Shown: positions 33,964 to 51,546 of the stretch, in pieces
How positions within the stretch are numbered: position 1 is the first letter of the stretch
How the letters are laid out: each line of letters begins with the position of its first letter
From: a virus
Direction: 5' to 3' (one strand)
IMG/VR virus record: IMGVR_UViG_3300032313_000518
Location: 1-64,000 of that record
DNA: 64,000 bases
Notes under the pieces: model-generated
Databases searched by the model: none
What the model saw: the letters and a program-made list of their open reading frames with translations, nothing else
What the model was told of the DNA's origin: nothing
Made by a program: the position numbers and the translations under genes

Positions 33964-34632
33964 ATGAAAAATAATGTAACATCAATTGGTTCAAACATTA
34001 GTGAGTTAGGTACTAACTTTCTATTGTTCATCGTATCTTCTATTGTAGCAATAGGATTATGTACTCAAGCATATTTTGTGTATCTTAACGTTTCTGGTAA
34101 CAATGAAACTGCAAAAAACTTATCAACTAAATTTGATGAGAAGTTTAATGGATATTACAAAAACACACCTGGTAATATATTCTATAATGATGATAGTATA
34201 TACTATATGGAAGAAAATGAAGTGTGGGTTGATGGTGTAACTAATCAGGTTAAGATTGGTAAGTTAGCCGGAAATCGTAATTTAGAATTTGGAGTTAAAA
34301 ACATATTAGAAGAATATATCCAAGAAACAGGATATGCTCTTACTGAAAACGCAAGTAAAAAAATTAAAGTTGAGATAATCTATTTAGATGTACTCACAAC
34401 AAAAAAGAACATATCGGTTTTTCATAGTAATGAAGAAGAGGTAGTTATTCGTTTACGTGGAATGTTATATAAAGATGGTAAAAAAGTGAAAGATGTTATA
34501 GTGGAGGAATCATCATCGGAAGTATCAATGTCAACGCTGATAGTAGACGGTGGTGGTAAGTTCAATCAAACTTCTTTAAGCAATGCGCTGAAGAAAGGTT
34601 CTGGTAAACTTATTACTAAACTATTTCAGTAA
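33964..34632 (+). CDS. membrane-anchored periplasmic protein, 222 aa
   Basis: One membrane span (about residues 18-40, TNFLLFIVSSIVAIGLCTQA) and a strand/helix domain outside. The part from NLEFGVKNILEEYIQETGYA to SNALKKGSGKLITKL recalls outer-membrane assembly lipoproteins of the CsgG/YajG kind, but only loosely. First gene of the island and directly joined to the next gene (stop TAA then ATG), so it may help export or assemble the following proteins. Function not established. Confidence 0.55.
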   Translation: MKNNVTSIGSNISELGTNFLLFIVSSIVAIGLCTQAYFVYLNVSGNNETAKNLSTKFDEKFNGYYKNTPGNIFYNDDSIYYMEENEVWVDGVTNQVKIGKLAGNRNLEFGVKNILEEYIQETGYALTENASKKIKVEIIYLDVLTTKKNISVFHSNEEEVVIRLRGMLYKDGKKVKDVIVEESSSEVSMSTLIVDGGGKFNQTSLSNALKKGSGKLITKLFQ

Positions 34633-36255
34633 ATGAAAAATTTCTTATTGGCTCTGGTACTATCACTAGTATCATTAACATCTTTTGGTCAATTAATCAT
34701 TAACCAAGAGGTAACTAACTCTAAACCTTATAGAGTTGGTGATACACTAACGGTAAGGTATAACGTTATTAAAGGAACTACAAACCCTAGATTTCTTTGG
34801 ATGCGTTATCAATACTCAAACAAACACCTACAAAAATTAGGTAATACTGTATTCTCACAAGGAGCAACTGCACAAAATTTTGAAGCAACTTGGCCCAACT
34901 ATATGTTCACACAAAACCCAGCAATTGGAGTTGGTGAATTGGATAAACAATATGGTTCAACCCCTTGGAACTATACCGCAAACAATGATTGGATAGCGAA
35001 GCAATTTACAACACAAAGAGCAGATGCGGTAATTGATGGTTTGTGGGCAACTGAAAAGTACATCTTATTAGAAAACTCAACATATCAAGCAATACACAAA
35101 TTGGATTTAGCAACTGCAAATGGAACAAACGATGCGGCAATTACACCAATTGGTTCTCAAGTTCTTCAATTATCATTTGCTGATGCAGATGTAAAGCACG
35201 TATCGGCATTTAGAGTAAGAGTTGGATATCCAGCTAACTTTCCAATTACTTCATTATCAGTATTAATCCAACCATTAAACACAGATGGAACTACCAATTT
35301 TACTGCTCCACAAATAGCAAAGAAATCATTAAACTCAGCAGGAATTGCAGATTTTGAACAATTTAATATTGGTGATAAATTTGGTGTATATATTGTTCCA
35401 ACTACTGGAGCAGATTATCTAAACAATGTAATAACTGTTACCGATGCTTATAGAGCATTTTTAGCAGTAACCGATGTTGGATTAAATGGAACATCATCCG
35501 TATTTCAATATCCTGCAATTGAAAAAATGATTGGTAATGTAACAATTGGAGATGGTGATTTTAACAACAACGATGCTTACTATTTATTTGCACATATTTT
35601 AGGACAAGATGTGACAGCAAAAGCAAACATAACTAAACAAAGTGCAAATCCATTACGATTTATATCAGTAAAACAATCAGTATATCCTACTATTACAAAT
35701 GCAGCAACTAACAATTCAGTAAACATAACATCTGCAAATCAAACTGAAATATTCTCTTATGCATTTAGTGGTGATTTGGACTTCTCTCATTCATCTAACC
35801 CAGCTATACCAATAACAAATAGTGTAGGTGGGCAAGGAACAATGAATAGAACGATAACTAATAAAGGAATATATTCAAATCAATTAGCTGGAAATGCAAC
35901 ATTAAGTTTATCATCTAAAATTGAAAACAACAAAGTTATCCTAAGTGGTAACTTAACGCAAGCTGGATTAGCAGGTTTGGAAGTTATTTTGAAATATGAT
36001 AATTCTAAATTAACTTTGGATGGTATTGTATTTGATGCGGGTTCATCTATAACTAACTTCTCAACGGATAAAGATGGTAGATTAACGTTTGGTTCAATGG
36101 ACCAAATTAAAACTGCTAGAATCAAAACGGGTACACCATACAAATTAACTTTCACATCCAATGTTCCCTTAACAAATACTGCAGGTTTATTTTATACTGA
36201 ATTAGCAGATGCAGTTGATGGAAACGGAAATAAGATTGGATTAAATGTAGAGTAA
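34633..36255 (+). CDS. secreted protein with dockerin-like and cohesin-like parts, 540 aa
   Basis: Signal peptide MKNFLLALVLSLVSLTSFGQ. Large strand-rich N-terminal half, then a dockerin-type calcium helix-loop (GDGDFNNNDAYYLFAHILG, about 306-324), then a C-terminal cohesin-like sandwich (about 417-540: LSLSSKIENNKVILSGN, LEVILKYDNSKLTLDGI, GRLTFGS). Its second half is paralogous to that of the next protein (shared VTVTDAYRAF.. / LTVGDAYLAF.., GL.GT.S). Cohesin and dockerin bind each other in cellulosomes, so self-assembly into a surface layer or fibre is possible. Late expression is likely. Confidence 0.7.
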   Translation: MKNFLLALVLSLVSLTSFGQLIINQEVTNSKPYRVGDTLTVRYNVIKGTTNPRFLWMRYQYSNKHLQKLGNTVFSQGATAQNFEATWPNYMFTQNPAIGVGELDKQYGSTPWNYTANNDWIAKQFTTQRADAVIDGLWATEKYILLENSTYQAIHKLDLATANGTNDAAITPIGSQVLQLSFADADVKHVSAFRVRVGYPANFPITSLSVLIQPLNTDGTTNFTAPQIAKKSLNSAGIADFEQFNIGDKFGVYIVPTTGADYLNNVITVTDAYRAFLAVTDVGLNGTSSVFQYPAIEKMIGNVTIGDGDFNNNDAYYLFAHILGQDVTAKANITKQSANPLRFISVKQSVYPTITNAATNNSVNITSANQTEIFSYAFSGDLDFSHSSNPAIPITNSVGGQGTMNRTITNKGIYSNQLAGNATLSLSSKIENNKVILSGNLTQAGLAGLEVILKYDNSKLTLDGIVFDAGSSITNFSTDKDGRLTFGSMDQIKTARIKTGTPYKLTFTSNVPLTNTAGLFYTELADAVDGNGNKIGLNVE

Positions 36256-38189
36256 TGAGAAAACTGCTTGTTGTAATATTAATATTATTATCCAGTAGTA
36301 TATCCATAGCACAATCCATTACACAACCAACCGCTAGAAAGTTTGAATTAAACCTAAGTGGGCAGGCGTGTAGTGGATTTGTTTTGAATGGATTTACTTC
36401 TACTGATATTTTGTTGGCATCCATAGGGTTTATTAATCCACCAGCAGGTACAACATTCAATTTAACCACAACAACGGGATTATCACCCGCATCTGGATTT
36501 ACTTTAAGTGGTAATAAAAGTAAATTAGTTTTTACGGGTACAATGGCAAACATAAACAATGCATTGGCAACCTTAAAAATAAATACGGGTGCAACTGCGG
36601 GTAGTGTTCAGGTATCCGTATCAGCAACTATAAATCCAACTGGGTTTTATTATAATCCAATAAACGGACACTTTTACAAACCTGTAACAACCGGTGTTAC
36701 CTATACTGCAGCTAGAGCGGCAGCATTAACAACAACATTCAAAGGACAAACAGGATATTTGGTAACAATTACTTCTGCTGATGAAAATTCTTTTATATTT
36801 GTTAATGTACCACAAGCTAACATATGGTTTGCGGCAACGGATGAAGTAACGGATGGAACTTGGGTAATCGATGCAGGACCTGAAAAAGGAACTGTAATGA
36901 AAACATCGAATGGGCAAACTGCCGGAAACAGACCTGGTGTATATAACAACTGGGCAGGTGGTGAACCCAATGGATACAATCATAGTGAGGATTATGCAGT
37001 AACTAATTGGAATGGGCAATCAACTTGGAATGATTTATCAAATAATTGGAGTAACCCATACATAATTGAATATGGAACTTGGACTAATCCAGATTCACAA
37101 ACATTTACTGATTTTTATTCAGCAAACGTAATAAACCCCATAGACGTACCATCATCAAAAGTTAATTTTTATTTTGGTGGTAATATAAATCCATCACAAT
37201 GGTCTATAAAAGCATATACTGCAAATGGTGTAACTCCTGTTAGTACAACTACTGGTTTAACTTTGGGTGCAAATGGCAGTGTGGTTAATACAACGGATTT
37301 TGTTAAATCTAAAACTGATATGGTACTATATTTATCAAAACTACCATCCGCCACTTTAACAAGTCTATATGGTAGTGTATTAACTGTTGGTGATGCGTAT
37401 TTGGCATTTCAAGAGTTATCTGATAGAGGATTAACTGGAACTGAAAGTAAAGCATTTACAAGTGGAGTACAATTTTTAAATGGAGATGTAGATGGTAACA
37501 ATGTATTTAATGAAATAGATTCCTACAAAATATTACAACACGTTATAGGTAGTACACCAATTGTTTCTACTTGGAGTGAAAGTAATTTATTTAGATTTGT
37601 AAAAAAATCTACATTCGATGGTATAACTAAAGCAAATTGGGCAACAACCAATACACCATATTCAGCAATTTATCCTTTGGCAGTTAATGCAACTATAAAT
37701 GATTATGTGTACGATGTGGTGGTGGCATTAAAGGGTGATGTAAACCTTTCACATACAGTAGCACAAAATAGACCTACTACTCAAAGTACAAATCGTACAA
37801 TGAATTTAAGTATGCCTATGGAAGTATCAACCTATGTATCAAGCGAAATAGTGGATGGTAAGGTAGTAGTAACTATAAAAGTTAATACATTGGGGCAATT
37901 GGTAAAAGGGATTCAATTAAAGTTAAACTATGATAGTGATATTTTAAAATATGAAAATACCGAATATACAACTTCTGGTAATCCTTTAAACTTTTCAAAT
38001 GATATTGGCAACTGCATAAGTTTTGGTTCTTTAATTTATAATAGTAATGGTTTATTAAACAATAATACGGAATACAAATTAACATTTACACCAAAAGAAG
38101 TCATAACTAATACAATTGGTTTAACATCAATTGAGGGAATTGATGCGGTAAATGTGAGTGGTTCAACTCTTAAAATTAAAAACTTATAA
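36255..38189 (+). CDS. secreted C-type-lectin, dockerin-like and cohesin-like protein, 644 aa
   Basis: Signal peptide MRKLLVVILILLSSSISIAQ. Residues about 130-274 form a C-type lectin-like domain: FYKPV, YTAARAAAL, GYLVTITSADENSFI, IWFAATDEVTDGTWV, WAGGEPNG, EDYAVTNWNG and WNDLSN. Then a dockerin-type loop (GDVDGNNVFNEIDSYKILQH, about 410-429) and a cohesin-like end (about 515-644). Paralogous in its second half to the previous gene; start and stop overlap in both directions (ATGA-like joins). The lectin part suggests sugar or protein binding at the cell surface. Could also be a virion-associated adhesin if not retained. Confidence 0.75.
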   Translation: MRKLLVVILILLSSSISIAQSITQPTARKFELNLSGQACSGFVLNGFTSTDILLASIGFINPPAGTTFNLTTTTGLSPASGFTLSGNKSKLVFTGTMANINNALATLKINTGATAGSVQVSVSATINPTGFYYNPINGHFYKPVTTGVTYTAARAAALTTTFKGQTGYLVTITSADENSFIFVNVPQANIWFAATDEVTDGTWVIDAGPEKGTVMKTSNGQTAGNRPGVYNNWAGGEPNGYNHSEDYAVTNWNGQSTWNDLSNNWSNPYIIEYGTWTNPDSQTFTDFYSANVINPIDVPSSKVNFYFGGNINPSQWSIKAYTANGVTPVSTTTGLTLGANGSVVNTTDFVKSKTDMVLYLSKLPSATLTSLYGSVLTVGDAYLAFQELSDRGLTGTESKAFTSGVQFLNGDVDGNNVFNEIDSYKILQHVIGSTPIVSTWSESNLFRFVKKSTFDGITKANWATTNTPYSAIYPLAVNATINDYVYDVVVALKGDVNLSHTVAQNRPTTQSTNRTMNLSMPMEVSTYVSSEIVDGKVVVTIKVNTLGQLVKGIQLKLNYDSDILKYENTEYTTSGNPLNFSNDIGNCISFGSLIYNSNGLLNNNTEYKLTFTPKEVITNTIGLTSIEGIDAVNVSGSTLKIKNL

Positions 38190-39088
38190 TGAAAAAGTTT
38201 ATAATTACTCTTATCTTTATACTTACAGTACAAATGTGGGGATATTCTCAAACTGTATCAATACCGGATACTATGCAACTATCCGCAAAGGAATTATTTG
38301 ATGAAAGCGATGATTGGAATGATTTGGGTATATTAGAATCTTATATTGATTTTTCAAAAGATGTTCTATCATCATCTAATCTATCAGTTGGTATAATTGG
38401 AAGGCAAGTATCAACTACTATAAATTTAGGATATAGTAAGTGGTCTAAAAATGGTATGTATGGGCATTCATTTTCAACATCAATAAATCCAATATGGAAA
38501 TACTATGGGTTGGGTTATGGATTTAGTAAAAATACGGATAAAAGAACAACAACTTTACAATCATTTTATTCAACCGATTTTGATTTTCAAAAAGATATTA
38601 ACCTTTCATTCATAGATGTTTATAGAACTAAAAAGTGGGGAACATTTGGATATAGTTTAATAGCATCAAAAACATATTGGGGTTCTTATGAGGGAGAGTG
38701 GGAAGGAAAATATACAGTAGATTCGGATGGCAACTTTTTGGATTTGATATATCCAACAATTCCTGCATCATCTCAATTAACTTATAAAGGAATGTTGATG
38801 TACACTTATACATTTAAAACAAAGATGGTTGATATATCGCCACAACTATTTGGTATGAGTGATGTTTATGTAGATTTTAAAGATGGTACTGAATCTGATT
38901 TGGCTTATGTAAATGATTTCAATTTAGACTTGTATTATGGTACATCTTTGGATTGGAAACTAACTAAAAGATTCGTATTGAATACTAACATTAGATTTAA
39001 TAAGACTTGGGATAAATTATCAAAATCCGTTGGTTATAAAAAGAGTAACCCAATAATGTTTATGATTGGAACAAACTTTCAATTTTAA
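38189..39088 (+). CDS. outer-membrane beta-barrel protein, 299 aa
   Basis: Signal peptide MKKFIITLIFILTVQMWGYSQ, then alternating strands ending in the barrel signature IMFMIGTNFQF with a terminal Phe. The last 60 residues (LYYGTSLDWKLTKRFVLNTN) resemble the barrel end of the stalked protein at 49936-51546, so the two barrels are paralogous. It is translationally coupled to the lectin/cohesin gene and may anchor or export those proteins. Confidence 0.75.
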   Translation: MKKFIITLIFILTVQMWGYSQTVSIPDTMQLSAKELFDESDDWNDLGILESYIDFSKDVLSSSNLSVGIIGRQVSTTINLGYSKWSKNGMYGHSFSTSINPIWKYYGLGYGFSKNTDKRTTTLQSFYSTDFDFQKDINLSFIDVYRTKKWGTFGYSLIASKTYWGSYEGEWEGKYTVDSDGNFLDLIYPTIPASSQLTYKGMLMYTYTFKTKMVDISPQLFGMSDVYVDFKDGTESDLAYVNDFNLDLYYGTSLDWKLTKRFVLNTNIRFNKTWDKLSKSVGYKKSNPIMFMIGTNFQF

Positions 39089-39091: not shown

Positions 39092-39436
39092 ATGAAGTGG
39101 AGTAAAATTATAATTTGGTGTTGTGTACTTTCTATAATATCTTGTCAAAATGAATATATAGTAGAACCACAAATAATTGATATTTTTAAAGTAGAACAAT
39201 CTACTCTATCAAATAAAAGTGAAATTAGTTTTAATGTGCAAAAGGAAGGGATATACATTGTAACTATGGTAGATAAAAATACCAATCAAGTTCTAAGTAG
39301 AGAAAAAATAAAATGTATTATAGGTAAAAATAAAATAAAGGTTTATACGAAAACAATACCAAGTCAATATTTATATTTGACATTGGAAGATAGTTTTGAT
39401 AATCAGTTAGGAAAAACAACAATAACAATAAAATAA
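39092..39436 (+). CDS. lipoprotein with a sorting-domain-like fold, 114 aa
   Basis: Lipobox LSIISC (Cys18) after a short hydrophobic signal. The remainder (EGIYIVTMVDKNTNQVLSRE, KNKIKVYTKTIP) has the strand rhythm of a T9SS type A C-terminal sorting domain or small Ig-like sandwich. The next gene is a diverged duplicate. Probably anchored in the outer membrane beside the barrel protein. Confidence 0.65.
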   Translation: MKWSKIIIWCCVLSIISCQNEYIVEPQIIDIFKVEQSTLSNKSEISFNVQKEGIYIVTMVDKNTNQVLSREKIKCIIGKNKIKVYTKTIPSQYLYLTLEDSFDNQLGKTTITIK

Positions 39437-39438
39437 AG

Positions 39439-39810
39439 ATGAAAAAAGTATTAGGATTATTAGCAATGATTTGCATAGTTGCAAGTTGTACCAATGAAGA
39501 TTTGTTAGTACCAACAACAACGGAAGTAACTGAAAAATTACAAATAGTTGGCAATATGGGTATTAAAGTAGAAACTCCATTTGTAAAAAATGAAGTTGCT
39601 ATGAATGTAAAAGCTGAAACTGCTGGAACATATGTAGTAAAGATATTAAACATAGCAAACAAATCAGTATCAAAAGAAGAAGTAACTATAAAAGCTGGTA
39701 ACAATCTATTAAAGATTTATGCAAACGCTTTACCATCTTCAGCATATAGAATTGGTCTATTCGATTTAGAAGGAAACTTACTTGGGATAGCAGATTTTAA
39801 CAAGTTATAA
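39439..39810 (+). CDS. lipoprotein with a sorting-domain-like fold, 123 aa
   Basis: Lipobox IVASC (Cys17). Body AGTYVVKILNIANKSVSKEE, GNNLLKIYANALPSSAYRIG matches the plan of the preceding lipoprotein and of T9SS sorting domains (GxYxVxI ... GxNxLxI). Two bases from its partner. Function unknown; likely a small surface or periplasmic lipoprotein. Confidence 0.65.
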   Translation: MKKVLGLLAMICIVASCTNEDLLVPTTTEVTEKLQIVGNMGIKVETPFVKNEVAMNVKAETAGTYVVKILNIANKSVSKEEVTIKAGNNLLKIYANALPSSAYRIGLFDLEGNLLGIADFNKL

Positions 39811-39837: not shown

Positions 39838-40164
39838 ATGTCAGAGGAAACAGAAAACTCAGGAGGCGGTTCATTAAAGAGTATTTTAATTGGACTTGCT
39901 AGCACAGTCGCATTGGGAGTTGGTGGTTATGTAACCAAACAACTAACAGGTGAAAAAGATGAGCCGGCAGCTGCAACATCAGCACCAGCACCGGTAATCA
40001 ACATTACCAATTCACAAACGCAACAACAATCTGCTGGTGGTAAAACTATAATCATCAACAAAGGTGGTAATGGAAACGGAGCAGCAGCGCCAGCAGCAGC
40101 ACCAACTCCTAAACCAAAGAAAAAAGAAGGAGACGAGTTCAAAGAAGAAAAACCACAATGGTAA
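39838..40164 (+). CDS. single-span protein with Ala/Pro-rich tail, 108 aa
   Basis: A membrane-like segment (about residues 15-32, SILIGLASTVALGVGGYV) and a low-complexity tail (PAAATSAPAPVINITNSQTQ, GNGNGAAAPAAAPTPKPKKK). Located directly before two holin-like genes. May belong to a lysis or envelope complex; no family recognised. Confidence 0.6.
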   Translation: MSEETENSGGGSLKSILIGLASTVALGVGGYVTKQLTGEKDEPAAATSAPAPVINITNSQTQQQSAGGKTIIINKGGNGNGAAAPAAAPTPKPKKKEGDEFKEEKPQW

Positions 40165-40170
40165 TATAGT

Positions 40171-40506
40171 ATGGAGAATCAACAACCGGATGGATTTAAG
40201 CAACTCTTAAATCAAATGATGAAACGCAGGTGGTTAATTACATTAATTGTGTTAATTACTTTTATGTTTACTACATTTGGAATTATGATTTCTATTCATA
40301 TAGATACGGCTGTTGGACAAGAATGGAAAGAATTATTATTACTTTTATTAGGGGCATTTATTGGTTCTTATGGTAAGATTATAGATTACTGGTTTTCTGA
40401 TACTGATAAAGATAAGATGTTAGTTCAGAAAATGGATGAAGAAGATGGAGTATCTCTTTCAAATACCGGTGGAGCAGCAGAATCATCGGAAGAAGAATTA
40501 GGTTAA
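40171..40506 (+). CDS. holin-like two-span membrane protein, 111 aa
   Basis: Two hydrophobic segments (about residues 22-45, WLITLIVLITFMFTTFGIMI, and 57-73, LLLLLLGAFIGSYGKII) and an acidic C-terminal tail ending SSEEELG. The size and topology suit a class II holin. The next gene has the same topology and tail end, so the two may act as a pair (holin and antiholin). Assignment is by topology only. Confidence 0.55.
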   Translation: MENQQPDGFKQLLNQMMKRRWLITLIVLITFMFTTFGIMISIHIDTAVGQEWKELLLLLLGAFIGSYGKIIDYWFSDTDKDKMLVQKMDEEDGVSLSNTGGAAESSEEELG

Positions 40507-40580
40507 ATTTTATAATAATAAGTTACACCCAAATACGTTTTAATAATTGGTTATATTAAATAACAATTAAATAAAAGATT

Positions 40581-40868
40581 ATGGGATTTTTTAAAGAATT
40601 ATTCAGCGATGACAATCAAATAAATGAGAAATCGGTAGTTGGATTCGCATCATTCGCAGTAATGGTAATATGTATCGCTGTTGATTTAGTAACCGGATAT
40701 ATTGGAAAAGAATTAGTGATTAACGAATATGTGTTTAACGCATTTCTAACACTAACATTGGGTTCATTCGGTATTGGTTCAGTTGATAAGTTTATCAACA
40801 AAAAAGCTGAAAATGATAAAGCTAAAATTGAAGCAGATAGTTCATCCGATGAGGAAGAGTTAGGATAG
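40581..40868 (+). CDS. holin-like two-span membrane protein, 95 aa
   Basis: Two hydrophobic segments (about residues 21-40, GFASFAVMVICIAVDLVTGY, and 52-68, NAFLTLTLGSFGIGSV) and a charged tail ending SSSDEEELG, the same end as the preceding protein. Followed by a strong terminator. Likely the last gene of the 33.96-40.87 kb transcript. Confidence 0.55.
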   Translation: MGFFKELFSDDNQINEKSVVGFASFAVMVICIAVDLVTGYIGKELVINEYVFNAFLTLTLGSFGIGSVDKFINKKAENDKAKIEADSSSDEEELG

Positions 40869-40936: not shown

Positions 40937-41656
40937 ATGAAAAAATTATTGCTATTATTAAGTTTATGTTCGTTAAGCAGTGTTGCAGTAGGACAAACGG
41001 TAGGAAAAACTCAAACTGAAAACTACAAAGCATCATTTGAAACGAAGGTTGACATTAGTGAGTTGATGGACTATGATGGACCAACAATTCCAGTACAAAT
41101 CTTAAAATGTGGAATCAGCGATGAAATTTTGGAACAGTATCCGGAACTTAAAGAAAAGAAGGTGGGCCTTGGTGTTGCTAATATATCTATGGAATACCTT
41201 GAAAATCTCAATCGTTTTACTTTTACTGAAGATAAGACGGAGTTAAAGAACAGAATGGTTGCTCAATTCAAAGCATCCCAATCTGGTATCTCTCAGGACA
41301 AATTAGATGGTAGAGGTAAAATTCGTTTAGCACATTACTTTGTTACAATCGAAGTATATGATTTCTCCGTTTCCGAAGATGAGACAGTTAATCTAAAAGA
41401 TGGAGTAAAGAATAAGATGGTTACTCGTCTGGGTTTGCAAGTTCGTTTTACTGATGCTGAAACCGGAGAGGTATTTGGCGCAAGTGGTTTGGGTGAAGCA
41501 ACTACAACCAGAGAGTTATCTTTAATATCCGATGCAACAATCGATGATGTTAAATTTAACCAATCAACAATCGGAACATCTACAAAGAAAGCATTAGATA
41601 TTGCTTGTAGTAGAATTCTTCTTCGTATGATAAAGAAGGGGAAGTTCCCAAAATGA
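40937..41656 (+). CDS. CsgG-like outer-membrane secretion/pore protein, 239 aa
   Basis: Signal peptide MKKLLLLLSLCSLSSVAVGQ without a lipobox Cys, then a CsgG-like domain: VGLGVANISMEYLENLNRF, an ELKNRMVAQF helix, GRGKIRLAHYFVTIEVYDF, and LGLQVRFTDAETGEVFGASG. CsgG forms a nonameric outer-membrane pore for curli secretion; CsgG relatives are known in some marine T4-like phages, where a lysis or export role has been suggested. The adjacent holin-like and lipase genes favour an envelope-opening role. No curlin gene is nearby. Confidence 0.7.
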   Translation: MKKLLLLLSLCSLSSVAVGQTVGKTQTENYKASFETKVDISELMDYDGPTIPVQILKCGISDEILEQYPELKEKKVGLGVANISMEYLENLNRFTFTEDKTELKNRMVAQFKASQSGISQDKLDGRGKIRLAHYFVTIEVYDFSVSEDETVNLKDGVKNKMVTRLGLQVRFTDAETGEVFGASGLGEATTTRELSLISDATIDDVKFNQSTIGTSTKKALDIACSRILLRMIKKGKFPK

Positions 41657-41662
41657 TAAATT

Positions 41663-42403
41663 ATGACTAAAAGAGAAGTATTATATAATGCTAGTTTAGC
41701 AGTATTAGCATATTCAAAAGAAGAGCAAATTAAGTGGAGTGATTATGGGTTAGAGTTAGTGAAGTGGATTCACAACGATAAATCAGATACACAGGGATTT
41801 GTAGCAACGCGGGATAAAGCAATCTATGTTGTGTGGAGAGGTAGTGAATCAAAGAAGGATTTTCAAAATGATGCTTCAATTGATAAAGTACCATTTATAA
41901 ACGATGGAGAGAAAGTACACATTGGATTTAAATATTGTTGGGAATCGGTAGTGGGTGATACCTATGATGCAATCGATATTGCAATAGAAAACCTACAAGG
42001 AGAAACTACGGATATTGTAGTTTGTGGACATAGTTTGGGTGGAGCAATAGCAACATTGTATGCACACTCAATTAAGAAACACTATCCACATTACAACATT
42101 AAATCCGTAACAATTGGAAGTCCAAGAGTTGGCAACAAAACATTTAAGGACAATTACGATTCATATGAGATTGATACTTTGAGAGTGGTACACAATAACG
42201 ATTTGGTAACACATACACCATACATTAGATTTTATCACGTAAACTATCAATTAAGATTAGATAGTGATGGTAATGTATTAAAGAGAGATACATCATTAAA
42301 TGCATTATGGTTATACCTTAAAGCAATATTTTCAGGTAGTAATATCAAAGACCATATGGGTGATGGGTATATGAAAGCATTACAAAATTGGGTAACAAAA
42401 TAA
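41663..42403 (+). CDS. class 3-type lipase, 246 aa
   Basis: Alpha/beta hydrolase with nucleophile Ser124 in CGHSLGGAIA, a likely catalytic Asp in HNNDLVTHTP and His in KDHMGDGYM. VVWRGS is the oxyanion region of lipase_3 enzymes. There is no signal peptide, so release would depend on membrane breakdown or the holin-like proteins. Beside CsgG- and holin-like genes it could attack membrane lipids at lysis; a metabolic role is also possible. Confidence 0.85.
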   Translation: MTKREVLYNASLAVLAYSKEEQIKWSDYGLELVKWIHNDKSDTQGFVATRDKAIYVVWRGSESKKDFQNDASIDKVPFINDGEKVHIGFKYCWESVVGDTYDAIDIAIENLQGETTDIVVCGHSLGGAIATLYAHSIKKHYPHYNIKSVTIGSPRVGNKTFKDNYDSYEIDTLRVVHNNDLVTHTPYIRFYHVNYQLRLDSDGNVLKRDTSLNALWLYLKAIFSGSNIKDHMGDGYMKALQNWVTK

Positions 42404-42406
42404 TAT

Positions 42407-42715: not shown

Positions 42716-42727
42716 ACAACTAAAATT

Positions 42728-43528
42728 ATGGGAAGTGCTGGAAAAGCAATTGAAAACGCATTTGTAGATGCGGGAAATGCAATTAACGATAATGTTATTA
42801 AACCAATCGCAGATGTAGTAGTAGATGCGGGAAATGTGATTAATGATAATGTAATTCAACCAATCGCAGGTGGTATAAACACTGCAATAGGTAGTGTAGA
42901 AGATGCATACAACTATTCAGTAGCATTTGCTACCGATAGTGCACATAGAGTAGAAAGCGCAGCTTGTACTATTGCAAGTACTACTGAAGAATTTGCAAAG
43001 GTAGGATTCGATGTAACTCAAAACGAATTTGTTCAATTATCTAAACAAGCCGAACAACAAATTGTTGCAGGTGTTGAAATAGTGGCAGCAGGTGCAGTAG
43101 CTGCATATAATTGGGCAGATGCAAATGCTTGTACAATTGGAATAACTGCAGCAATCTCTACGGGTTGTGTTTTAGCATTTACACCGGCACAACCTGCTGG
43201 AGCAGCAACTTCAACTACATTATCATTGATGGCTACGCCGGTTCTTTACGTTGCAGATATGGCAGCTAAAATGGCAGTATCAACGGCAATGGGTGTAATA
43301 GTGGCAGATGGATTTTTAGCAATACCTGGTGTTGGTGGAAATGTTGACCCACAATTATTAAGAAATGTATGTTCAAATTGTATCTATTATAGTTTAGATT
43401 CAGCTGCATTATGGGCAACGCCTGCTGGAGTTGGTATCGCAATAGGAGCTGCAGTAGCACCAGTTGTTGCATCTTTGGTATGTACTAGAACTTGTCCTAA
43501 TGGATTCAGTAAAGCATTGGGTGCATAA
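42728..43528 (+). CDS. hydrophobic Ala/Val-rich protein with internal repeat, 266 aa
   Basis: Starts with two copies of a unit DAGNAINDNVIKPIADVV / DAGNVINDNVIQPIAGGI (residues about 15-50). The rest is rich in Ala/Val/Gly with several long hydrophobic stretches and about eight Cys, without signal peptide. It might insert into membranes. Unrecognised; co-oriented with lipase and GNAT-like genes. Confidence 0.6.
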   Translation: MGSAGKAIENAFVDAGNAINDNVIKPIADVVVDAGNVINDNVIQPIAGGINTAIGSVEDAYNYSVAFATDSAHRVESAACTIASTTEEFAKVGFDVTQNEFVQLSKQAEQQIVAGVEIVAAGAVAAYNWADANACTIGITAAISTGCVLAFTPAQPAGAATSTTLSLMATPVLYVADMAAKMAVSTAMGVIVADGFLAIPGVGGNVDPQLLRNVCSNCIYYSLDSAALWATPAGVGIAIGAAVAPVVASLVCTRTCPNGFSKALGA

Positions 43529-43612
43529 TACAAACTTAACAATTTGATAATATTAAAAGTATAATTTTATTAAGGTAGTTTCCTATATATTGGTGAAAAT
43601 TAAAACATCAAT

Positions 43613-46096
43613 ATGAGGAAACTACTTTTATTATTAACGTTACTAATTCCCATAATATCCTTTTCACAAACCTTATCGGGTAAAACAAAATCAAATAAAG
43701 AAGAACTCATTGGAGTTACAATTTGGCTAACTAACAAAAATACAAATAAAAAAATTGGAAGTACATCTGATATCGAATCCAAATATCAATTCCAAAATGT
43801 AGTAGCTGGAAACTATTCAATCAAAGCATCATTTGTTGGATATAAAGAATATACAAAAGATATTACAATTAATGGAGATACCAATTTAGATATCCTAATT
43901 GAAGAAGATACAAAAGTATTGCAAGAAGTTGTAGTAAAGCAAGTAGCAAAGAAAGAAACTGCAACCGCACTTATCAATACACTTAAAGCATCTTACATTG
44001 TAGCAGATGGTTTATCAATCGAATCAATAAAGAAAACACCAGATAGAACTGTTGGAGATGCACTTAAAAGAGTTAGTGGTGTAACAATCCAAAACGATAA
44101 GTTTGTTTTAGTTAGAGGTTTAGCTGATAGATACAACTCGGCTCTACTAAACAAATCAATCCTACCATCAACCGAACCCGATAGAAGAGCATTCTCATTT
44201 GATATTATACCAACATCACTAATAGATAATATTATCATCAACAAAGGAGCATCGGCAAACCTACCGGGTGATTTCGCAGGAGGTTTGGTACAAATTACAA
44301 CAAAGGAAGTTAGTGGTGATTTCTTAAATGTATCATTGGGAGGAAGTTGGGGTTCACTATCAACGGGACAGAATTTTAGATTGGTAGACCCAATACAATT
44401 CCCATCAACGTTCCCATCAACAAACGGATATAGGATTGCTGGATTGGGTGATAGAAGAGCATACACTAAACTAATAGGTTCGCCACAATCCGAAGAGTTT
44501 TCATCTATTCCAAACTTAAATGGTAACTTATCATTTGGTGTTGTAAAAAACAAATGGAACATCTTATTCAGTTCAACAGCAAGAAATACATATTCAGCTA
44601 ATACAACCGAAAGAATCGATTATCAATCATCAACTGAATTAGCATACAATTACAAAGACTTAAATTACTCAAATGTACAATCTCTAAATGGATTATTGAA
44701 CATAGTTTATTTAGGAGAGAATCGTTATAGTTGGAAAACACTTGCTAACTACCAAAACGAAAAATCATTTTTAAGTAGAGTTGGTGAGAACTATGATAAT
44801 GTTCAGTATGTAGATAGTAAATCATCCAACTCAATTCAAAAGTTAGTATTCAATACACAATTTGAAGGTAAGATTAAAACATTGGATTTTAATGTAGGAT
44901 ATAATCTTATGTTGAGAGACCAACCTGATTATAGAGTAACACCTTACATATCATCTTTATATACATCAACACCTTATTCAATAGCATGGAGAGATACCTA
45001 TCGTTTTTGGAGTGTAATGGATGAAAACTCATTCAATGGGGGATTAAACAAATCCATAGGAGATATTCGTTTAGGAGTGGGTTACTTGAAGAAATTGAGA
45101 AACTTCAAAGCAAGAATATTCAGATACGAATCAATGGATTTATTAAATGAGATTACAAACAACACCGATAGATATACTGCCGATTTTGATTTGGCAAATG
45201 GATATGTGATGTATGAAAAAGAAATCAATGACCTAAAAGTAAATACAGGTTTTAGAACAGAATACAATTTATTCAAAGTTCAAACATCTGATTTTAGTGG
45301 ACAACGGATTTCAGTAGATAGAGAGTATTTGGATTTACTCCCATCATTAAACGCAACATATTCAACATCAGAAAAAACAAAGGTTAGATTATCGGTAAGT
45401 AAAACATTAGCAAGACCAGAGTTTAGAGAGGTAGCTAATTTTGCGTATTATGACTTTGTTAGAAACGCACAACTATTAGGAAATCCAAACTTACAAAAAA
45501 CGGATATATTCAATTCAGATATAAAGTTCGAGTTGTATCCTAAATCAGGTGAGAATATATCAATCGGTTTTTTTGGTAAGAAGTTCTTCAATCCAATTGA
45601 GCAAGTTGTAGCAGATGGTTCAGTTCCATCAAATCTATTATTAACATATAAAAATCCAAATGAAGCATTGGTATATGGAGTTGAAATTGAACTTCGTAAA
45701 AAATTAAATGATTGGTTAGATTTATATTCAAACACATCATTCATCAATTCGGAAGTTGATATAAATGGAATTAAAAGACAATTGCAAGGACAATCAAACT
45801 ATGTAGTAAATGGTGGATTGAACTTACATAAAAACAACAATACGTTCAACATATCATACAATAGAGTTGGAGATAGAATATCAGCAGTAGGATTTCAAGG
45901 ATACCCCGATATATTTGAAAACTCTCGTGATGTAGTTGATATTGTTATTCTTCGTAAAATTAAAAACGGAGAAATTAAATTAGCAGTATCGGATATATTC
46001 AGACAACCATTTGAGTATTACCAAAAACCAAATAGAACTTTAATTAAAACAAACAACGAAACAACAGTTTCACTAACACTAAATTACAACCTATGA
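43613..46096 (+). CDS. TonB-dependent outer-membrane receptor, 827 aa
   Basis: Signal peptide MRKLLLLLTLLIPIISFSQ, carboxypeptidase-regulatory-like domain (about 20-95: LIGVTIWLTNKNTNKKIGS, KASFVGYKEY), TonB box VLQEVVVKQ (about 102-110), plug (DALKRVSGVTIQN, VLVRGLADRYNSALLN, IIINKGASANLPGDFAGG) and a 22-strand-type barrel ending SLTLNYNL. It is a complete nutrient-type receptor. The four-base overlap with the beta-helix lipoprotein gene is the usual arrangement for a Bacteroidota receptor with its surface lipoprotein. Substrate not identifiable. Confidence 0.93.
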   Translation: MRKLLLLLTLLIPIISFSQTLSGKTKSNKEELIGVTIWLTNKNTNKKIGSTSDIESKYQFQNVVAGNYSIKASFVGYKEYTKDITINGDTNLDILIEEDTKVLQEVVVKQVAKKETATALINTLKASYIVADGLSIESIKKTPDRTVGDALKRVSGVTIQNDKFVLVRGLADRYNSALLNKSILPSTEPDRRAFSFDIIPTSLIDNIIINKGASANLPGDFAGGLVQITTKEVSGDFLNVSLGGSWGSLSTGQNFRLVDPIQFPSTFPSTNGYRIAGLGDRRAYTKLIGSPQSEEFSSIPNLNGNLSFGVVKNKWNILFSSTARNTYSANTTERIDYQSSTELAYNYKDLNYSNVQSLNGLLNIVYLGENRYSWKTLANYQNEKSFLSRVGENYDNVQYVDSKSSNSIQKLVFNTQFEGKIKTLDFNVGYNLMLRDQPDYRVTPYISSLYTSTPYSIAWRDTYRFWSVMDENSFNGGLNKSIGDIRLGVGYLKKLRNFKARIFRYESMDLLNEITNNTDRYTADFDLANGYVMYEKEINDLKVNTGFRTEYNLFKVQTSDFSGQRISVDREYLDLLPSLNATYSTSEKTKVRLSVSKTLARPEFREVANFAYYDFVRNAQLLGNPNLQKTDIFNSDIKFELYPKSGENISIGFFGKKFFNPIEQVVADGSVPSNLLLTYKNPNEALVYGVEIELRKKLNDWLDLYSNTSFINSEVDINGIKRQLQGQSNYVVNGGLNLHKNNNTFNISYNRVGDRISAVGFQGYPDIFENSRDVVDIVILRKIKNGEIKLAVSDIFRQPFEYYQKPNRTLIKTNNETTVSLTLNYNL

Positions 46097-47295
46097 AAAA
46101 ATTATTAGTATTGTTCGCAAGTTTAACAATCTTTGGATGTTCTAAAGATTTGGGTGGAGAAGTTACACCAATCAATGTACCAACCTCAACAACTTTGAGT
46201 GGTAACATCACATCAACTACAACTCTTACATCGGATAAAGAGTGGGTATTAAAAGGATATGTTTATGTAACCGATGGTGCTAAACTTATCATTCAACCTG
46301 GCACAACAATCAAATCTGATATAAGTGAGAAAGGTGCATTGTGTATTGAAAGAGGAGCACAAATTGTAGCAGAAGGTACTGTAGCAAAACCAATCATATT
46401 CACATCTGGTAGACCTGCTGGAGAAAGAACACCTGGTGATTGGGGTGGTATTGTAATATTGGGTAGAGCAAAAACCAATAGAACGGCAGAACCAACTATC
46501 GAAGGTGGTATCGGAAGACCTTATGGTGGAACAAACGATTTAGATAATAGTGGTGTTCTAAAATATGTAAGAATTGAATACGCTGGAATTGCAGCAATGC
46601 CAAACTCTGAAATCAACGCACTAACATTGGGTGGAGTTGGTAGTGGAACAATTATTGAGAATGTTCAAACTATCTACGCTAACGATGATGCATTTGAATT
46701 CTTTGGTGGAACTGTAAATGCTAAAAACTTATATGCATATGGAACTGCGGATGATGATTATGATTTTGATTTTGGATATAGAGGAAAAGTATCTTTTTCA
46801 GTATCAAAGAGAGACCCACAATTCGTAGATAATGGTGATGCGGGAAATGGTGTAGAGTGTGATAATGATGGAACAGGTTCAACAGCAGAACCATTTACAC
46901 ATCCTATTTTAGATAATATGATTTTAGTTGGGCCTAACGATGCAACATCTTTAGCAAACCACAATTTAGCAATGAGATGGAGAAGAGCAACTCAATTTGA
47001 GGTTTACAATTCTACAATCATTGGATATATGAAAGGTGGTTTCTCAATGGAAAGTAATGAAACTGCACAATTCTACAAAGATGGTGTAAGTAAGTTTCAG
47101 AACAATAAAATTGGTTCATACAACTTATTAAACTTTATCAGTAAGGCAACTACTATTATTACATCGGATGTAGTTAAAACAAAAGCATTAAGTGAAGGTA
47201 ATACTGAAATAACTTTAACTCCAACCGAAATAGAAACCTTATCTAAACCAATTTGGACAGCAGGTTGGACTAAATTCCCAACGAAAGGAAACTAA
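46093..47295 (+). CDS. surface lipoprotein with right-handed beta-helix fold, 400 aa
   Basis: Lipobox IFGC (Cys16) after MKKLLVLFASLTIFGCSKD. Body consists of short repeating strands (KLIIQPGTTIKSDISEKGAL, AKPIIFTSGRPAG, GDWGGIVILGRAK, VLKYVRIEYAG), the pattern of Bacteroidota beta-helix lipoproteins often encoded next to TonB receptors. It is coupled to the receptor gene by ATGA. It probably forms the lid or substrate-binding partner of that receptor, in the manner of SusD for SusC though unrelated in fold. Confidence 0.82.
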   Translation: MKKLLVLFASLTIFGCSKDLGGEVTPINVPTSTTLSGNITSTTTLTSDKEWVLKGYVYVTDGAKLIIQPGTTIKSDISEKGALCIERGAQIVAEGTVAKPIIFTSGRPAGERTPGDWGGIVILGRAKTNRTAEPTIEGGIGRPYGGTNDLDNSGVLKYVRIEYAGIAAMPNSEINALTLGGVGSGTIIENVQTIYANDDAFEFFGGTVNAKNLYAYGTADDDYDFDFGYRGKVSFSVSKRDPQFVDNGDAGNGVECDNDGTGSTAEPFTHPILDNMILVGPNDATSLANHNLAMRWRRATQFEVYNSTIIGYMKGGFSMESNETAQFYKDGVSKFQNNKIGSYNLLNFISKATTIITSDVVKTKALSEGNTEITLTPTEIETLSKPIWTAGWTKFPTKGN

Positions 47296-47296: not shown

Positions 47297-48010
47297 ATGA
47301 AAGATAAATTAACTATCATCATCCCATCAAAAAACGAAAGCGATACTTTATATGATTGCTTACAATTTTTGTATAATCAAACGGATATAGATGGTTTTAG
47401 AGTTATAGTAGCAGATATATCAGATGACCCATATTCGGTTGGTATTTTATATAAAGCAAGAAGTAATTTCAAAGATAAATTAAAAATTGAAGTAATAAAA
47501 GGTGGGTATCCATCGGAAGGTAGATTGGCAGGTTCTAAACTTGCCAATACTCCTTACATTCTGTTTTTAGATGCAGATGTATTTCTTACAAACCATAGTT
47601 TGTTAAGTGATATATTCAAAAAGTTGGAAACAACAAAGATAGAACTATTAACTACACCATTTCAAACTTCTAAAAAATGGAATTGGGTGTTTCGTATTTT
47701 TGATATATTCCAATGGTTGAGTGTAAAGATAAACTCACCATTTGCAGTAGGTGGATTTCAGTTATGGGATAGACAAGCATATTGGAAAGTAGGGGGATAT
47801 AAAAAAGATGAATTGTTTGCGGAAGATTATTCACTTTCATCAAAATCAAATCCAAAGTATTTTCATATACATAAAACAAACGGAGTTTGGACATCACCTC
47901 GTAGATTTCAAAACAAAGGAGTATTCTATATGGTTTCTTTAATGATGCAAAGTTACATCAACAGAAATAATCCTGAATTTTTCAAACAACATCACAATTA
48001 TTGGGTTTAA
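47297..48010 (+). CDS. family 2-like glycosyltransferase, 237 aa
   Basis: GT-A fold: LTIIIPSKNESDTLYDCL at the start, then VIVADISDDP, YILFLDADVF (DxD metal motif, about residues 88-97) and GGFQLWDRQAYWKVGGY with LFAEDYSLS. This fits GT2 enzymes that add sugars to surface glycans. One base after the beta-helix lipoprotein gene. Likely to alter host or virion glycans; substrate unknown. Confidence 0.85.
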   Translation: MKDKLTIIIPSKNESDTLYDCLQFLYNQTDIDGFRVIVADISDDPYSVGILYKARSNFKDKLKIEVIKGGYPSEGRLAGSKLANTPYILFLDADVFLTNHSLLSDIFKKLETTKIELLTTPFQTSKKWNWVFRIFDIFQWLSVKINSPFAVGGFQLWDRQAYWKVGGYKKDELFAEDYSLSSKSNPKYFHIHKTNGVWTSPRRFQNKGVFYMVSLMMQSYINRNNPEFFKQHHNYWV

Positions 48011-48012: not shown

Positions 48013-48108
48013 ATGGGCACTATATTTCCTTTTCTTTTTGGATTTGCAGTTGTTATAGCAGGTTGTATTGTTATGATGATTGTAGACCAAATTTCTAAAA
48101 AAAGATAA
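48013..48108 (+). CDS. 31-aa membrane peptide
   Basis: ATG at 48013 to TAA at 48106-48108, sharing one base with the next ATG. Nearly all hydrophobic (IFPFLFGFAVVIAGCIVMMI) with a basic end (SKKR). It links the glycosyltransferase and phosphoesterase genes. A real gene by its tight packing, function unknown. Confidence 0.5.
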   Translation: MGTIFPFLFGFAVVIAGCIVMMIVDQISKKR

Positions 48109-48818
48109 TGTACAAATATATCATAGTATCAGATTTACATTTAGGTACTAAACATAGTAAAGCAAAGGAGTTCTTACAATTCATAGAAGAGAACCCATGC
48201 GAACAACTTATTCTCAATGGGGATATAGTTGATGGATGGGCATTGCAAAGAGGAACTAAATGGAGAACATCTCACACAAAGGTAATTGCTAAACTAATAA
48301 AACTATCCACAAAGCAAAAGGTAGTTTGGATACGGGGAAATCACGATGATTTTCTTAAAGATTTTATTGGTACTAATTTGGGTAATATAAAAATCAGAGA
48401 AGATTATATTATTACCGCAGATAAAAGATACTTCATATTTCACGGAGATATTATAGATGTATTTATTACAAAATACAAATGGTTATCACAAATAGGAGCG
48501 GTTGGATACGATTTTGCTTTATTACTAAATGACGTGTATAATTGGTATCGTAAGTGGAGAAATCTACCTTATTATTCAATATCACAAAGAATAAAAGAGG
48601 GTGTTAAAATAGCAACCAATTATGTTAATGATTTTGAAACAACCGCAATCCGAATGGCAGGTGATAAGATGTGTGATGGTGTTATTTGTGGACACATTCA
48701 CCAACCCGCTGACAGAATGATTGGTAAAAAACACTATCTCAATTCAGGAGATTGGGTTGAGAATATGACAGCAATCTGTATAAATGATAACAATAATATA
48801 ACAATTAAAAGAATATAA
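48108..48818 (+). CDS. LpxH-like metallophosphoesterase, 236 aa
   Basis: Two-metal phosphoesterase: SDLHLGTK, NGDIVDGW, WIRGNHDDF, FHGDIIDVF and CGHIHQPA, with YLNSGDWVEN at the end. The order and spacing match UDP-2,3-diacylglucosamine hydrolase-like proteins of Bacteroidota, which act in lipid A synthesis or related glycolipids. Together with two glycosyltransferases it suggests lipopolysaccharide change during infection. It is unlike the phosphoesterase at 6672. Confidence 0.82.
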   Translation: MYKYIIVSDLHLGTKHSKAKEFLQFIEENPCEQLILNGDIVDGWALQRGTKWRTSHTKVIAKLIKLSTKQKVVWIRGNHDDFLKDFIGTNLGNIKIREDYIITADKRYFIFHGDIIDVFITKYKWLSQIGAVGYDFALLLNDVYNWYRKWRNLPYYSISQRIKEGVKIATNYVNDFETTAIRMAGDKMCDGVICGHIHQPADRMIGKKHYLNSGDWVENMTAICINDNNNITIKRI

Positions 48819-48852: not shown

Positions 48853-49893
48853 ATGTCATCCTCAAAAACTCTGTTTATATTAAAAAGAAAACAAAACTAT
48901 AATCTTTCAACCGATTATAGTGTTGGATTAAGCACCGGCCTGTACAATTCGGCTCAATTTATGAATCAAATGCTATTAGATGGCGGGTTTGATTCTCAAA
49001 TGGTAGTTGTAAATGATAATAACGATATAGATAGAGAAGTAACTCTACACAAACCAACCCACGTTATTATTGAAGCTCTTTGGGTTGTTCCATCTAAATT
49101 CGAAGTTCTTTGCAAATTACATCCAAACGTTAAATGGGTAATTCGTTTACATAGCGAAATACCATTTTTAGCAAATGAAGGAATGGCAATGGATTGGATT
49201 GGGGAATATAGTAAATTTGATAATATTATTATTTCTTGCAACTCACCACAAACTACCAAAGATATTGAGTTTTATATGAGTACAAAATTGGGTATTAAAA
49301 AGAATATAGCTTTTTTACCAAATTTTTATCCACAACAATATAAAACTAAATCATTCAATAAGAAAGGTGATACGATTCACATAGGATGTTTTGGTGCAAT
49401 TAGACCTCTAAAAAATCATCTTATACAAGCATTTGCAGCAATTAAGTTTGCAGATGAAATTGGTAAAAAATTACATTTCCATATCAATTGCGATAGAGTT
49501 GAACAAAAAGGAGAACCAATATTAAATAACTTAATAAGTATGTTCAATCATTTAGAACATAAAGGTCATAAGTTAGTTCATCATGAGTGGAGTGTTAGAG
49601 AGCAATTTATTCAATTATGTTCTACGATGGATATTGGAATTCAGATATCATTTAATGAAACTTTTAATATTGTAGGAGCTGATATAGTTTCACAAGGAGT
49701 TCCTTTGGTATCTTCACCTGAAATCCCTTGGGCTAATTCATTATTTACTGCAAGACAAACTAATACTGATGATATTGTAGATTCACTATTATGTACTTAC
49801 GCATATCCAAAAATAAATGTATTATTAAATCAAAGAGGTCTTGAAAAATATACAAATAAAACAAAACATATTTGGTTTAAGTTTTTCAAATGA
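48853..49893 (+). CDS. GT4-like (GT-B) glycosyltransferase, 346 aa
   Basis: GT-B-type layout: an N-terminal acceptor half with WVIRLHSEIPFLANEG and IISCNSP, a linker FLPNFYP, then IHIGCFGAIRPLKNHLIQAF and SFNETFNIVGADIVSQGVPL, the donor-binding E-x7-E region. Similar enzymes occur in T4-like phages and may act on host glycans or on DNA; nothing here indicates DNA glucosylation. Driven by a late-type element. Confidence 0.78.
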   Translation: MSSSKTLFILKRKQNYNLSTDYSVGLSTGLYNSAQFMNQMLLDGGFDSQMVVVNDNNDIDREVTLHKPTHVIIEALWVVPSKFEVLCKLHPNVKWVIRLHSEIPFLANEGMAMDWIGEYSKFDNIIISCNSPQTTKDIEFYMSTKLGIKKNIAFLPNFYPQQYKTKSFNKKGDTIHIGCFGAIRPLKNHLIQAFAAIKFADEIGKKLHFHINCDRVEQKGEPILNNLISMFNHLEHKGHKLVHHEWSVREQFIQLCSTMDIGIQISFNETFNIVGADIVSQGVPLVSSPEIPWANSLFTARQTNTDDIVDSLLCTYAYPKINVLLNQRGLEKYTNKTKHIWFKFFK

Positions 49894-49901: not shown

Positions 49902-49935
49902 TCCGGTTACACTTTTAAATATAAATCGGATATGA

Positions 49936-51546
49936 TTGAAAAAGTTAAAAGTTTTATTAAGTGTATTATTCATATTCTGTCTAGCTTCCAAAGCTAACGG
50001 ACAAACAACATTTACACAAACATTTATAGATAAGTGTACTGGAGAAGTAAAACTCGCCACCACTACCTATGTCAATGGAAATGCCTTTGTATCATTCTAT
50101 GACCAAATGAAAGTATTCTCACCCGAAGAAGTTCAAAGTGGTGCAATGAAAATTTGGTTACAAGCAGTTTACCTTGCTTATGCAAATAAGACTTGTGCAA
50201 CTGCAACGGTAGTTCAACAAACCATTCAACAAACGGTAAACCAAGCAGTTCAACAAGCAGCATCTCAAGCGGCTCAACAGGCAGCAGCTCAAGCCGCATC
50301 ACAAGCAGCAGCTCAAGCGGCTTCACAAGCAGCAGCTTCAGCCGCACAATCGGCAGCAGCTTCGGCAGCTCAATCAGCGGCAAGTTCAGCTGCATCATCT
50401 GCTGCTTCTTCTGCGGCAAGTTCAGCGGCAAGTTCAGCTGCATCATCTGCCGCTTCTTCTGCGGCTAGTGGAGCGGCTTCATCGGCAGCTGGTTCTGCGG
50501 CTAGTGGAGCAGCAGCTTCGGCAGCCGGAGCGGCAGTACCACCACCCCCACCAACTCCATCCGCACCTGCTCCTAGCGCTCCGGCTCCTTCTGGTGGAGG
50601 TTCACCTACCCCATCATCAAATAGTTCTTCTGGTGGAGGAAACGGAGGTGGTAGTTCATCACCAAAAGCAGAAGCAAAAGCTGAGGCAAAAGCTGAGGCA
50701 AAAGCCGAAGCTAAAGCTGAATCAAAATCGGAAAGTAAGAGTGAATCTAAATCAGAATCCAAATCCGAATCCAAAGAAGAAAGTAAATCCGAAAGTAAAA
50801 GTGAGGAAAAGAAAGAAGAATCAAAATCGGAATCTAAAAAAGAAGAAAAGAAAGAAGAGAAAAAGGAAGAGAAGAAACAAAAAGCAGCACCAATAAATCC
50901 ATTATTATTGGCATCGGATTTAAGTGTAGTAGAATCCGAACCTGGTAGTTGGCAGGCAATCCTATCAACTGGTGTATCTCGTTCATCAATGGCTGGAGAT
51001 GAAAGTTATTCAGCTAGTTCAATGATTTGGAGTAATCTAAAACAATTTGCCCTAAGTGGTGGTTATACTAAGATGAACTTCAAAGATGGAGCATTACATT
51101 CTATGAACTCATACTCACTAACTGGTGCATATTTGGATAGAACCTATATGAGTTTAGTTGGATTGACAGTAATAATACCACACCCAAAGATTGGAGTATA
51201 TGGATACAATGTTGGTTTAGTTAATCTATTCTCACCAAAAGAAGGTGGGGGATATGGATATAGTGTAAGTAATTCTGGTGTTCTATTTTGGACTAAACCA
51301 TATCAAACTACAAAGAAATTAACACTATCACCGCAAGTGTTTACAATGTTACCTGGTGGAAGTTGGGATACAACCAATGGTACATTCACTTATAGTTCCG
51401 ATGTTGGATTATTATTGGGTACTTCGATTGATTACAAAATCAGTAAACGTTTTGGATTTAGTTTTAATTACAAAATCAATACGTCTACTGCTGCAGGGGC
51501 TCCGATATTAAGTAACTTTTTAATTGGTTCTAGATTGATGCTTTAA
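49936..51546 (+). CDS. outer-membrane barrel with long Ala/Ser and Lys/Glu stalk, 536 aa
   Basis: TTG start gives a good signal peptide (MKKLKVLLSVLFIFCLASKA, then NGQ); the ATG at 49932 is in another frame. After a small domain (24-93) come about 105 residues of QAA/SAA repeats, a Pro/Gly linker (201-242), about 75 residues of KAEA, KSES and KKEE repeats, and a barrel (about 320-536) ending NFLIGSRLML. The barrel end resembles the 38189 protein (LGTSIDYKISKRFGFSFN). This looks like a surface or periplasmic stalk anchored in the outer membrane. Late expression is likely. Confidence 0.8.
   Translation: MKKLKVLLSVLFIFCLASKANGQTTFTQTFIDKCTGEVKLATTTYVNGNAFVSFYDQMKVFSPEEVQSGAMKIWLQAVYLAYANKTCATATVVQQTIQQTVNQAVQQAASQAAQQAAAQAASQAAAQAASQAAASAAQSAAASAAQSAASSAASSAASSAASSAASSAASSAASSAASGAASSAAGSAASGAAASAAGAAVPPPPPTPSAPAPSAPAPSGGGSPTPSSNSSSGGGNGGGSSSPKAEAKAEAKAEAKAEAKAESKSESKSESKSESKSESKEESKSESKSEEKKEESKSESKKEEKKEEKKEEKKQKAAPINPLLLASDLSVVESEPGSWQAILSTGVSRSSMAGDESYSASSMIWSNLKQFALSGGYTKMNFKDGALHSMNSYSLTGAYLDRTYMSLVGLTVIIPHPKIGVYGYNVGLVNLFSPKEGGGYGYSVSNSGVLFWTKPYQTTKKLTLSPQVFTMLPGGSWDTTNGTFTYSSDVGLLLGTSIDYKISKRFGFSFNYKINTSTAAGAPILSNFLIGSRLML
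50215..50883 (+). repeat. coding low-complexity repeats (SAA/QAA and KAE/KSE)
   Basis: Imperfect trinucleotide-rich repeats of GCA/GCT/TCA/CAA (50215-50535), a proline/glycine linker (50536-50661) and AAA-GAA/TCA-GAA type repeats (50662-50883). Codons vary, so selection acts on protein composition more than on recent slippage. Long open frames on other strands here are artefacts of this composition. Confidence 0.8.

Follow-up and report, generated by a model that had tools for sequence, protein, structure and literature searches.

The DNA analysed here, referred to as the window, comprises bases 1-64000 of the IMG/VR virus record IMGVR_UViG_3300032313_000518, which is 110,968 bases long. Between positions 33964 and 51546, about 20 open reading frames (ORFs), all on the plus strand, pack an island of 17.5 kb. 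This text deals mainly with two of its genes, N and O, which encode a TonB-dependent transporter (TBDT) and a lipoprotein, with the repeat upstream of them and with the downstream genes P and Q; the interpretable part of the island is the run N-O-P-(small ORF)-Q, at 43613-48818. The repeat and the genes of this run are as follows:

43536..43553, plus strand: PHO-box-like direct repeat TTAACAA-TTTG-ATAATAT, 77 bp upstream of N
43613..46096, plus strand: N, TonB-dependent transporter with CarbopepD_reg_2, Plug and OMP_b-brl_3 domains
46093..47295, plus strand: O, lipoprotein with a right-handed beta-helix fold, partner of N, assigned from its lipobox and a structure model
47297..48010, plus strand: P, family-2 glycosyltransferase (Pfam PF00535, 6.7e-16)
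48013..48108, plus strand: small ORF of 31 aa with one hydrophobic segment, overlapping the start of Q
48108..48818, plus strand: Q, calcineurin-like metallophosphoesterase, proposed to be PlcP-like

The N-O pair, its spread and its origin

The Pfam families PF07715, PF13715 and PF14905 (plug, carboxypeptidase-like domain and barrel) were all found in N, and O was modelled as a right-handed beta-helix with a predicted local distance difference test (pLDDT) score of 90.8, as the original prediction of a TonB receptor with a beta-helix partner had it. The matches of O in the PDB are weak, the best being a streptococcal beta-helix adhesin (E 4e-3), followed by the pectate lyase Pel9A (6e-3), and thus the fold gives no substrate. 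Both genes are under purifying selection, the ratio of nonsynonymous to synonymous substitution rates (dN/dS) among phages being 0.07-0.17 for N and spanning 0.07-0.26 for N and O together. O accompanies N in the phage copies and is equally conserved, and the signal peptide and the N-terminal domain of N differ between copies.

The pair also turns up in contigs that otherwise have few or no genes in common with the window phage (L007, L009, L011, L014-L016, L019, L021 and L022). In L009 it has genes for ssDNA-binding, UvsX-like and helicase proteins nearby, and in L007, where N is still 93% identical, it adjoins an endolysin gene. A homologue of O (38%) adjoining a TBDT (27%) is also carried by a 634 kb phage (L232, LR745206).

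N is 71% identical to its counterpart in Aquirufa, a freshwater bacterium, and O is 78-80% identical to those of Aquirufa-like genomes, with values of about 50% elsewhere in that family. A maximum-likelihood tree unites all of the 15 IMG/VR phage O sequences in a single clade (100/99) whose sister is Aquirufa (100/100), while the O of LR745206 lies outside the phage clade on a long branch. The O sequences of L005 and L012, which hold the island, group with that of L014, a contig without the rest of it. Taken together, the identities and the tree point to acquisition of N-O from an Aquirufa-like freshwater host and to later exchange among phages; the host of the window phage was probably itself an Aquirufa-like freshwater member of the Bacteroidota.

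Phosphate-linked relatives, the upstream repeat and genes P and Q

The cellular homologues of the pair often lie among phosphate genes. Aquirufa L164 has, after its TBDT and O, an alkaline-phosphatase-superfamily hydrolase and a PHO4 phosphate transporter, and an alkaline phosphatase is also close by. In G123 about 11 kb hold, in this order, a homologue of Q, a MurG-like glycosyltransferase, a porin-like gene, two PHO4-type transporters, a hydrolase, O and a TBDT; of the PHO4-type transporters, the one in L164 was tested with Pfam and the others were identified by eye. All of 80 cellular loci contain a TBDT. PitA and a histidine kinase are each present in 24 of them, a PhoU-like DUF47 protein in 23 and a response regulator in 20. 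Representatives of the kinase and of the regulator match the PnpS/PhoR and PhoB models best, with scores below the equivalog cut-offs. A pair of similar make-up has been studied in Flavobacterium johnsoniae, where Fjoh_0545 (a TBDT) and Fjoh_0546 (a beta-helix lipoprotein) belong to the PhoBR operon and are induced by phosphate (Pi) depletion only and do not respond to iron or nitrogen depletion (PMC8115612).

Most phages carry upstream of N a repeat of the form TTAACAA-N4-(T/A/G)TAA(C/T)A, which has the 7+4 layout of a PHO box, with heptamers at an 11-bp period. Of 22 phage copies of N, 18 have kept it, between -62 and -88, and many of these are near-identical. Aquirufa-like genomes carry a repeat of this kind before PitA (TTAACAATTCCTTAACA), before the homologue of Q and before the TBDT, where it is four-fold. 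Upstream of cellular TBDTs it occurs in 21 of 70 cases against 24 of 613 (p 5e-11), and upstream of DUF47-PitA genes in 6 of 23 (p 4e-4), both counts coming from related genomes that are not independent. The N-O pair thus seems to carry its own host-type, PHO-box-like element, and it is probably controlled by PhoB.

Among the loci compared, Q accompanies P beside N-O wherever the contig extends that far. Q matches PF00149 and PF12850 in Pfam and its metal motifs are complete (SDLHLG, NGDIVD, GNHDD, HGD and GHIH). It had been labelled LpxH-like, but an LpxH identity was not supported: Q reaches 50.1 bits against a curated LpxH cut-off of 134, although the host's own LpxH-like paralogues, at 90 and 70 bits, also miss that value. 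In sequence identity Q stands much nearer to a phosphatase gene linked to O (48-50%; it lies 9-27 kb from O in several genomes of the host family) than to the more LpxH-like host paralogue (27-31%). A more distant homologue (29%) is found in S-SRM01. As to P, it is one of two glycosyltransferases named in the original prediction and has the firm Pfam match listed above; its best NCBIfam model is an arsenosugar-biosynthesis glycosyltransferase, at 57.7 bits against a cut-off of 182. A host source of P was set aside, as the host-family genomes gave a single trivial match. Q may be a PlcP, and P may make a glycolipid.

A putative phosphorus-acquisition cassette and its alternatives

We consider it fairly likely that N-O, with P-Q downstream, is a host-derived and probably PhoB-controlled cassette for phosphorus acquisition, which is exchanged among unrelated phages. 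Under phosphate starvation, binding of host PhoB to the repeat before N would switch on N-O, and probably the adjoining P-Q too. The lipoprotein O may then bind or process an organophosphorus compound or another phosphate source at the cell surface, and N would import the captured source with energy supplied through TonB. Q would free phosphorus from the cell's own phospholipids and P would provide the sugar headgroup. The phosphorus gained in these ways could feed phage DNA synthesis after the shutdown of host transcription. A more tentative form of the proposal, which we hold to be possible but rather doubtful, is that of a complete outer-membrane phosphorus programme, in which capture and import by N-O are joined to a P-Q conversion of phospholipid to glycolipid, the whole being switched by host PhoB and traded between unrelated phages that infect the same freshwater hosts.

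Several points weigh against a phosphorus cassette. The repeat is missing from 4 of 22 phage copies of N (L007, L017, L019 and L022), and an equal simple match score, 11, is found for 16 of the record's 130 genes. With a matrix built from cellular sites, the site at 43536 outscores every other position of the 110,968-base record, on either strand, and this rank is partly circular, because the sites were picked by resemblance to a consensus first derived from phage and Aquirufa sequences. The comparison with the PDB gave O no close solved structure, and P has no homologue of note in the host-family genomes. In the wider family, as judged by eye from coordinate lists, the linkage of O to PitA is present in host-like and some small genomes and absent from many others, so that it was rejected as a family-wide rule.

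TonB receptors are common receptors of phages, and N could be a decoy or an altered host TonB receptor that blocks or diverts rival phages, that is, a means of superinfection exclusion or receptor replacement. That N passes between unrelated phages, perhaps with a common host, and that its signal peptide and N-terminal domain vary would suit such a role. We nevertheless regard it as unlikely, since the partner lipoprotein is retained with N and equally conserved, and since the homologues in cells are linked to phosphate genes and preceded by the same repeat. Moreover, a PADLOC scan of ten island proteins, N not among them, gave only one weak defence match, in B, a result on which a defence island was also rejected.

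It is similarly improbable that the scarce nutrient imported by N-O is a different one (iron, a vitamin or a glycan) and that phosphate genes are incidental neighbours of the pair in cells. Siderophores, vitamins and glycans are the usual cargo of TonB receptors and O shares its fold with pectate lyases and adhesins, but the phosphate-gene neighbours and the upstream repeat recur in several families, and the like-built pair of F. johnsoniae responds to phosphate and not to iron or nitrogen. Phosphorus acquisition therefore remains the favoured function of N-O, and of the purposes listed in the original prediction it is nutrient capture, for phosphorus, that was retained.

The island around the cassette

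The remaining genes of the island, and one gene beyond its right end, are the following:

33964..39088, plus strand: A-D, a membrane protein, two large exported proteins (C with a C-type lectin domain) and the barrel-like D
39092..39810, plus strand: E and F, two small lipoproteins with a lipobox in each; F with a weak Por_Secre_tail match
39838..40868, plus strand: G, H and I, small membrane proteins with hydrophobic segments, probable holins
40937..43528, plus strand: J-M, the exported J, the class-3 lipase K, the small L and the hydrophobic M
48853..49893, plus strand: R, glycosyltransferase-like (PHROG glycosyltransferase match, 0.0015), optional cargo with its own late-type element
49936..51546, plus strand: S, exported, Ala/Lys/Glu-rich, with a barrel-like C-terminus
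51866..52492, plus strand: T, membrane-anchored, conserved adjoining S

The envelope-rich character noted in the original prediction is borne out for much of this list. N-terminal hydrophobic leaders of export type are seen by eye in B, C, D, J, N and S, and sequence inspection places lipoboxes in E, F and O, which agrees with the three lipoproteins proposed. The C-type lectin domain of C was found by a Pfam HMM, while the cohesin and dockerin proposed for B and C had no Pfam HMM or PDB support where tested. The lipase K was confirmed as class 3 (Lipase_3, 2.7e-30 in Pfam, with GHSLG at 122); this gene (41663-42403) also occurs in the cyanophages P-SSM2 and P-SSM5, at 35%. No match in Pfam or the PDB backs a CsgG-like pore in J. 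The two proposed barrels, D and S, belong to one remote family, whose barrel-like domain ends S; the model of D was poor (pLDDT 53.6) and was set aside, so that its barrel label rests on the strand pattern. The second proposed glycosyltransferase, R, can be called glycosyltransferase-like. A homologue of I follows an endolysin gene in L021. Relatives without the island carry homologues of S (44-55%, in L034, L035, L041, L046 and L055) and of T (32-46%). A host source of C and K was set aside, since 13 host-family genomes gave no match to either, an empty result that is weak evidence. A-M and R-T form a separate, phage-specific envelope block with a probable role in lysis, and adhesion and lysis control are possible for these genes only.

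The island itself is real. Its gene order recurs in the independent IMG/VR contigs L003, L005, L008, L010, L012, L018 and L023, with phage genes at the borders on whichever sides the contigs cover, and hence an assembly chimera with host DNA was rejected. To its right lie baseplate genes of gp25/gp6 type, as predicted; the gene to its left (32721-33470), labelled a late sigma factor, has no family match in Pfam or PHROGs and is called sigma-like here. In island-free relatives only 0.3-3.4 kb separate the sigma-like gene from the next conserved genes, and this interval is a variable cargo slot. Two of these relatives (L093:1232-2956 and L099:742-2508) have the slot partly filled by a carbamoyltransferase-like ORF, identified by eye. 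By gp6, the closest isolates are Microcystis phage Mel-JY01 (42%) and Flavobacterium immuto phages (40%). Gene U (52464-53300), a conserved core gene beside the baseplate genes, has a weak match to a C45 autoproteolytic acyltransferase (26 bits against a cut-off of 85). A second TonB receptor of the window, an Oar-like protein with an OMP_b-brl_4 domain (13647-16907, minus strand), adjoins two genes on the same strand and is 43-45% identical to cellular homologues in host-family genomes; it was kept out of the cassette because the best of these homologues do not adjoin O.

The content between O and S varies, being N-O-P-Q-R-S in the window and L003, N-O-P-Q-S in L020 and L023, N-O-R-S in L018, and N-O-S in L005 and L012, which means that P-Q and R are gained or lost independently of each other. 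The late-type elements of the original prediction are also real. In this record the element reads ATATTTATA, the reverse complement of the T4 late motif, and 19 of 120 upstream regions contain TATTTATA, where 2.25 would be expected; the canonical motif TATAAATA was discarded, as it is not enriched on the coding strand while its reverse complement is. Copies precede A (33882), J (40906), R (48825) and S, and the scan of the 120 upstream regions found none before N. Across the record, ATATTTATA stands about 26-49 bp before many start codons (for example, at 40906, 57150 and 63862). Since N-O has a host-type element and no late promoter, the label 'late-expressed' is not borne out for it. That the whole island is expressed late, as one unit that remodels the outer membrane for adhesion or lysis control, is very unlikely: the elements before A, J, R and S and the recurrence of the block in related phages agree with it, but N-O lacks the late element, carries the host-type repeat and is found alone in other phages, which excludes it from such a unit, and P-Q and R come and go independently. 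The island is thus made of at least two modules.

Known systems and the meaning of the cassette

Phosphorus genes of phages are best known from cyanophages, in which they encode periplasmic binding proteins and phosphatases. The cyanophage pstS and phoA genes, for which control by host PhoBR is known (PMC10976474), resemble N-O in being host-derived phosphorus genes of T4-like phages, patchy in occurrence, exchanged and preceded by host-type Pho boxes. They differ in that their products are a periplasmic binding protein or a phosphatase, while the phages considered here infect Bacteroidota and carry an outer-membrane TonB transporter and a surface lipoprotein, with host control suggested by sequence. 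By analogy, the N-O cassette is best read as the Bacteroidota outer-membrane counterpart of cyanophage pstS.

The F. johnsoniae PUSIV system (Fjoh_0545, the TBDT, and Fjoh_0546, the lipoprotein FII; PMC8115612) shares with N-O the same Pfam trio, an adjacent beta-helix lipoprotein and a phosphate-regulon setting, a likeness judged by domain make-up, fold and setting. It is cellular and lies beside phoBR, whereas the phage pair sits among phage genes. The P-Q genes recall the PlcP-type phospholipase C and lipid glycosyltransferase of phosphate-starvation lipid remodelling: Q is likened to PlcP by its motifs and Pfam family, and its host-family homologue lies near O and, in Aquirufa-like genomes, precedes a glycosyltransferase, although no homology was detected between that glycosyltransferase and P. 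The T4-like Pelagibacter phage Mosig EXVC030M has a Q homologue (40%) in a cargo insert between baseplate genes, annotated as UDP-2,3-diacylglucosamine hydrolase and adjoining a gene annotated as a phosphate ABC transporter; that stretch has no TonB transporter or O, and the host belongs to another phylum.

In open-access titles and abstracts, whose coverage is incomplete, nothing was found on phosphorus import by a phage-encoded TonB transporter. If the proposed function is correct, phages of freshwater Bacteroidota would meet their phosphorus need at the outer membrane, by TonB-driven import under host phosphate sensing. The N-O pair offers a ready test of whether phosphorus supply limits the infections of these phages, and it would give a testable role to an uncharacterised lipoprotein family that is prominent in phosphate-starved Bacteroidota. 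More broadly, the cassette suggests that the virus helps starving infected cells to obtain the phosphorus needed for copying the viral genome.

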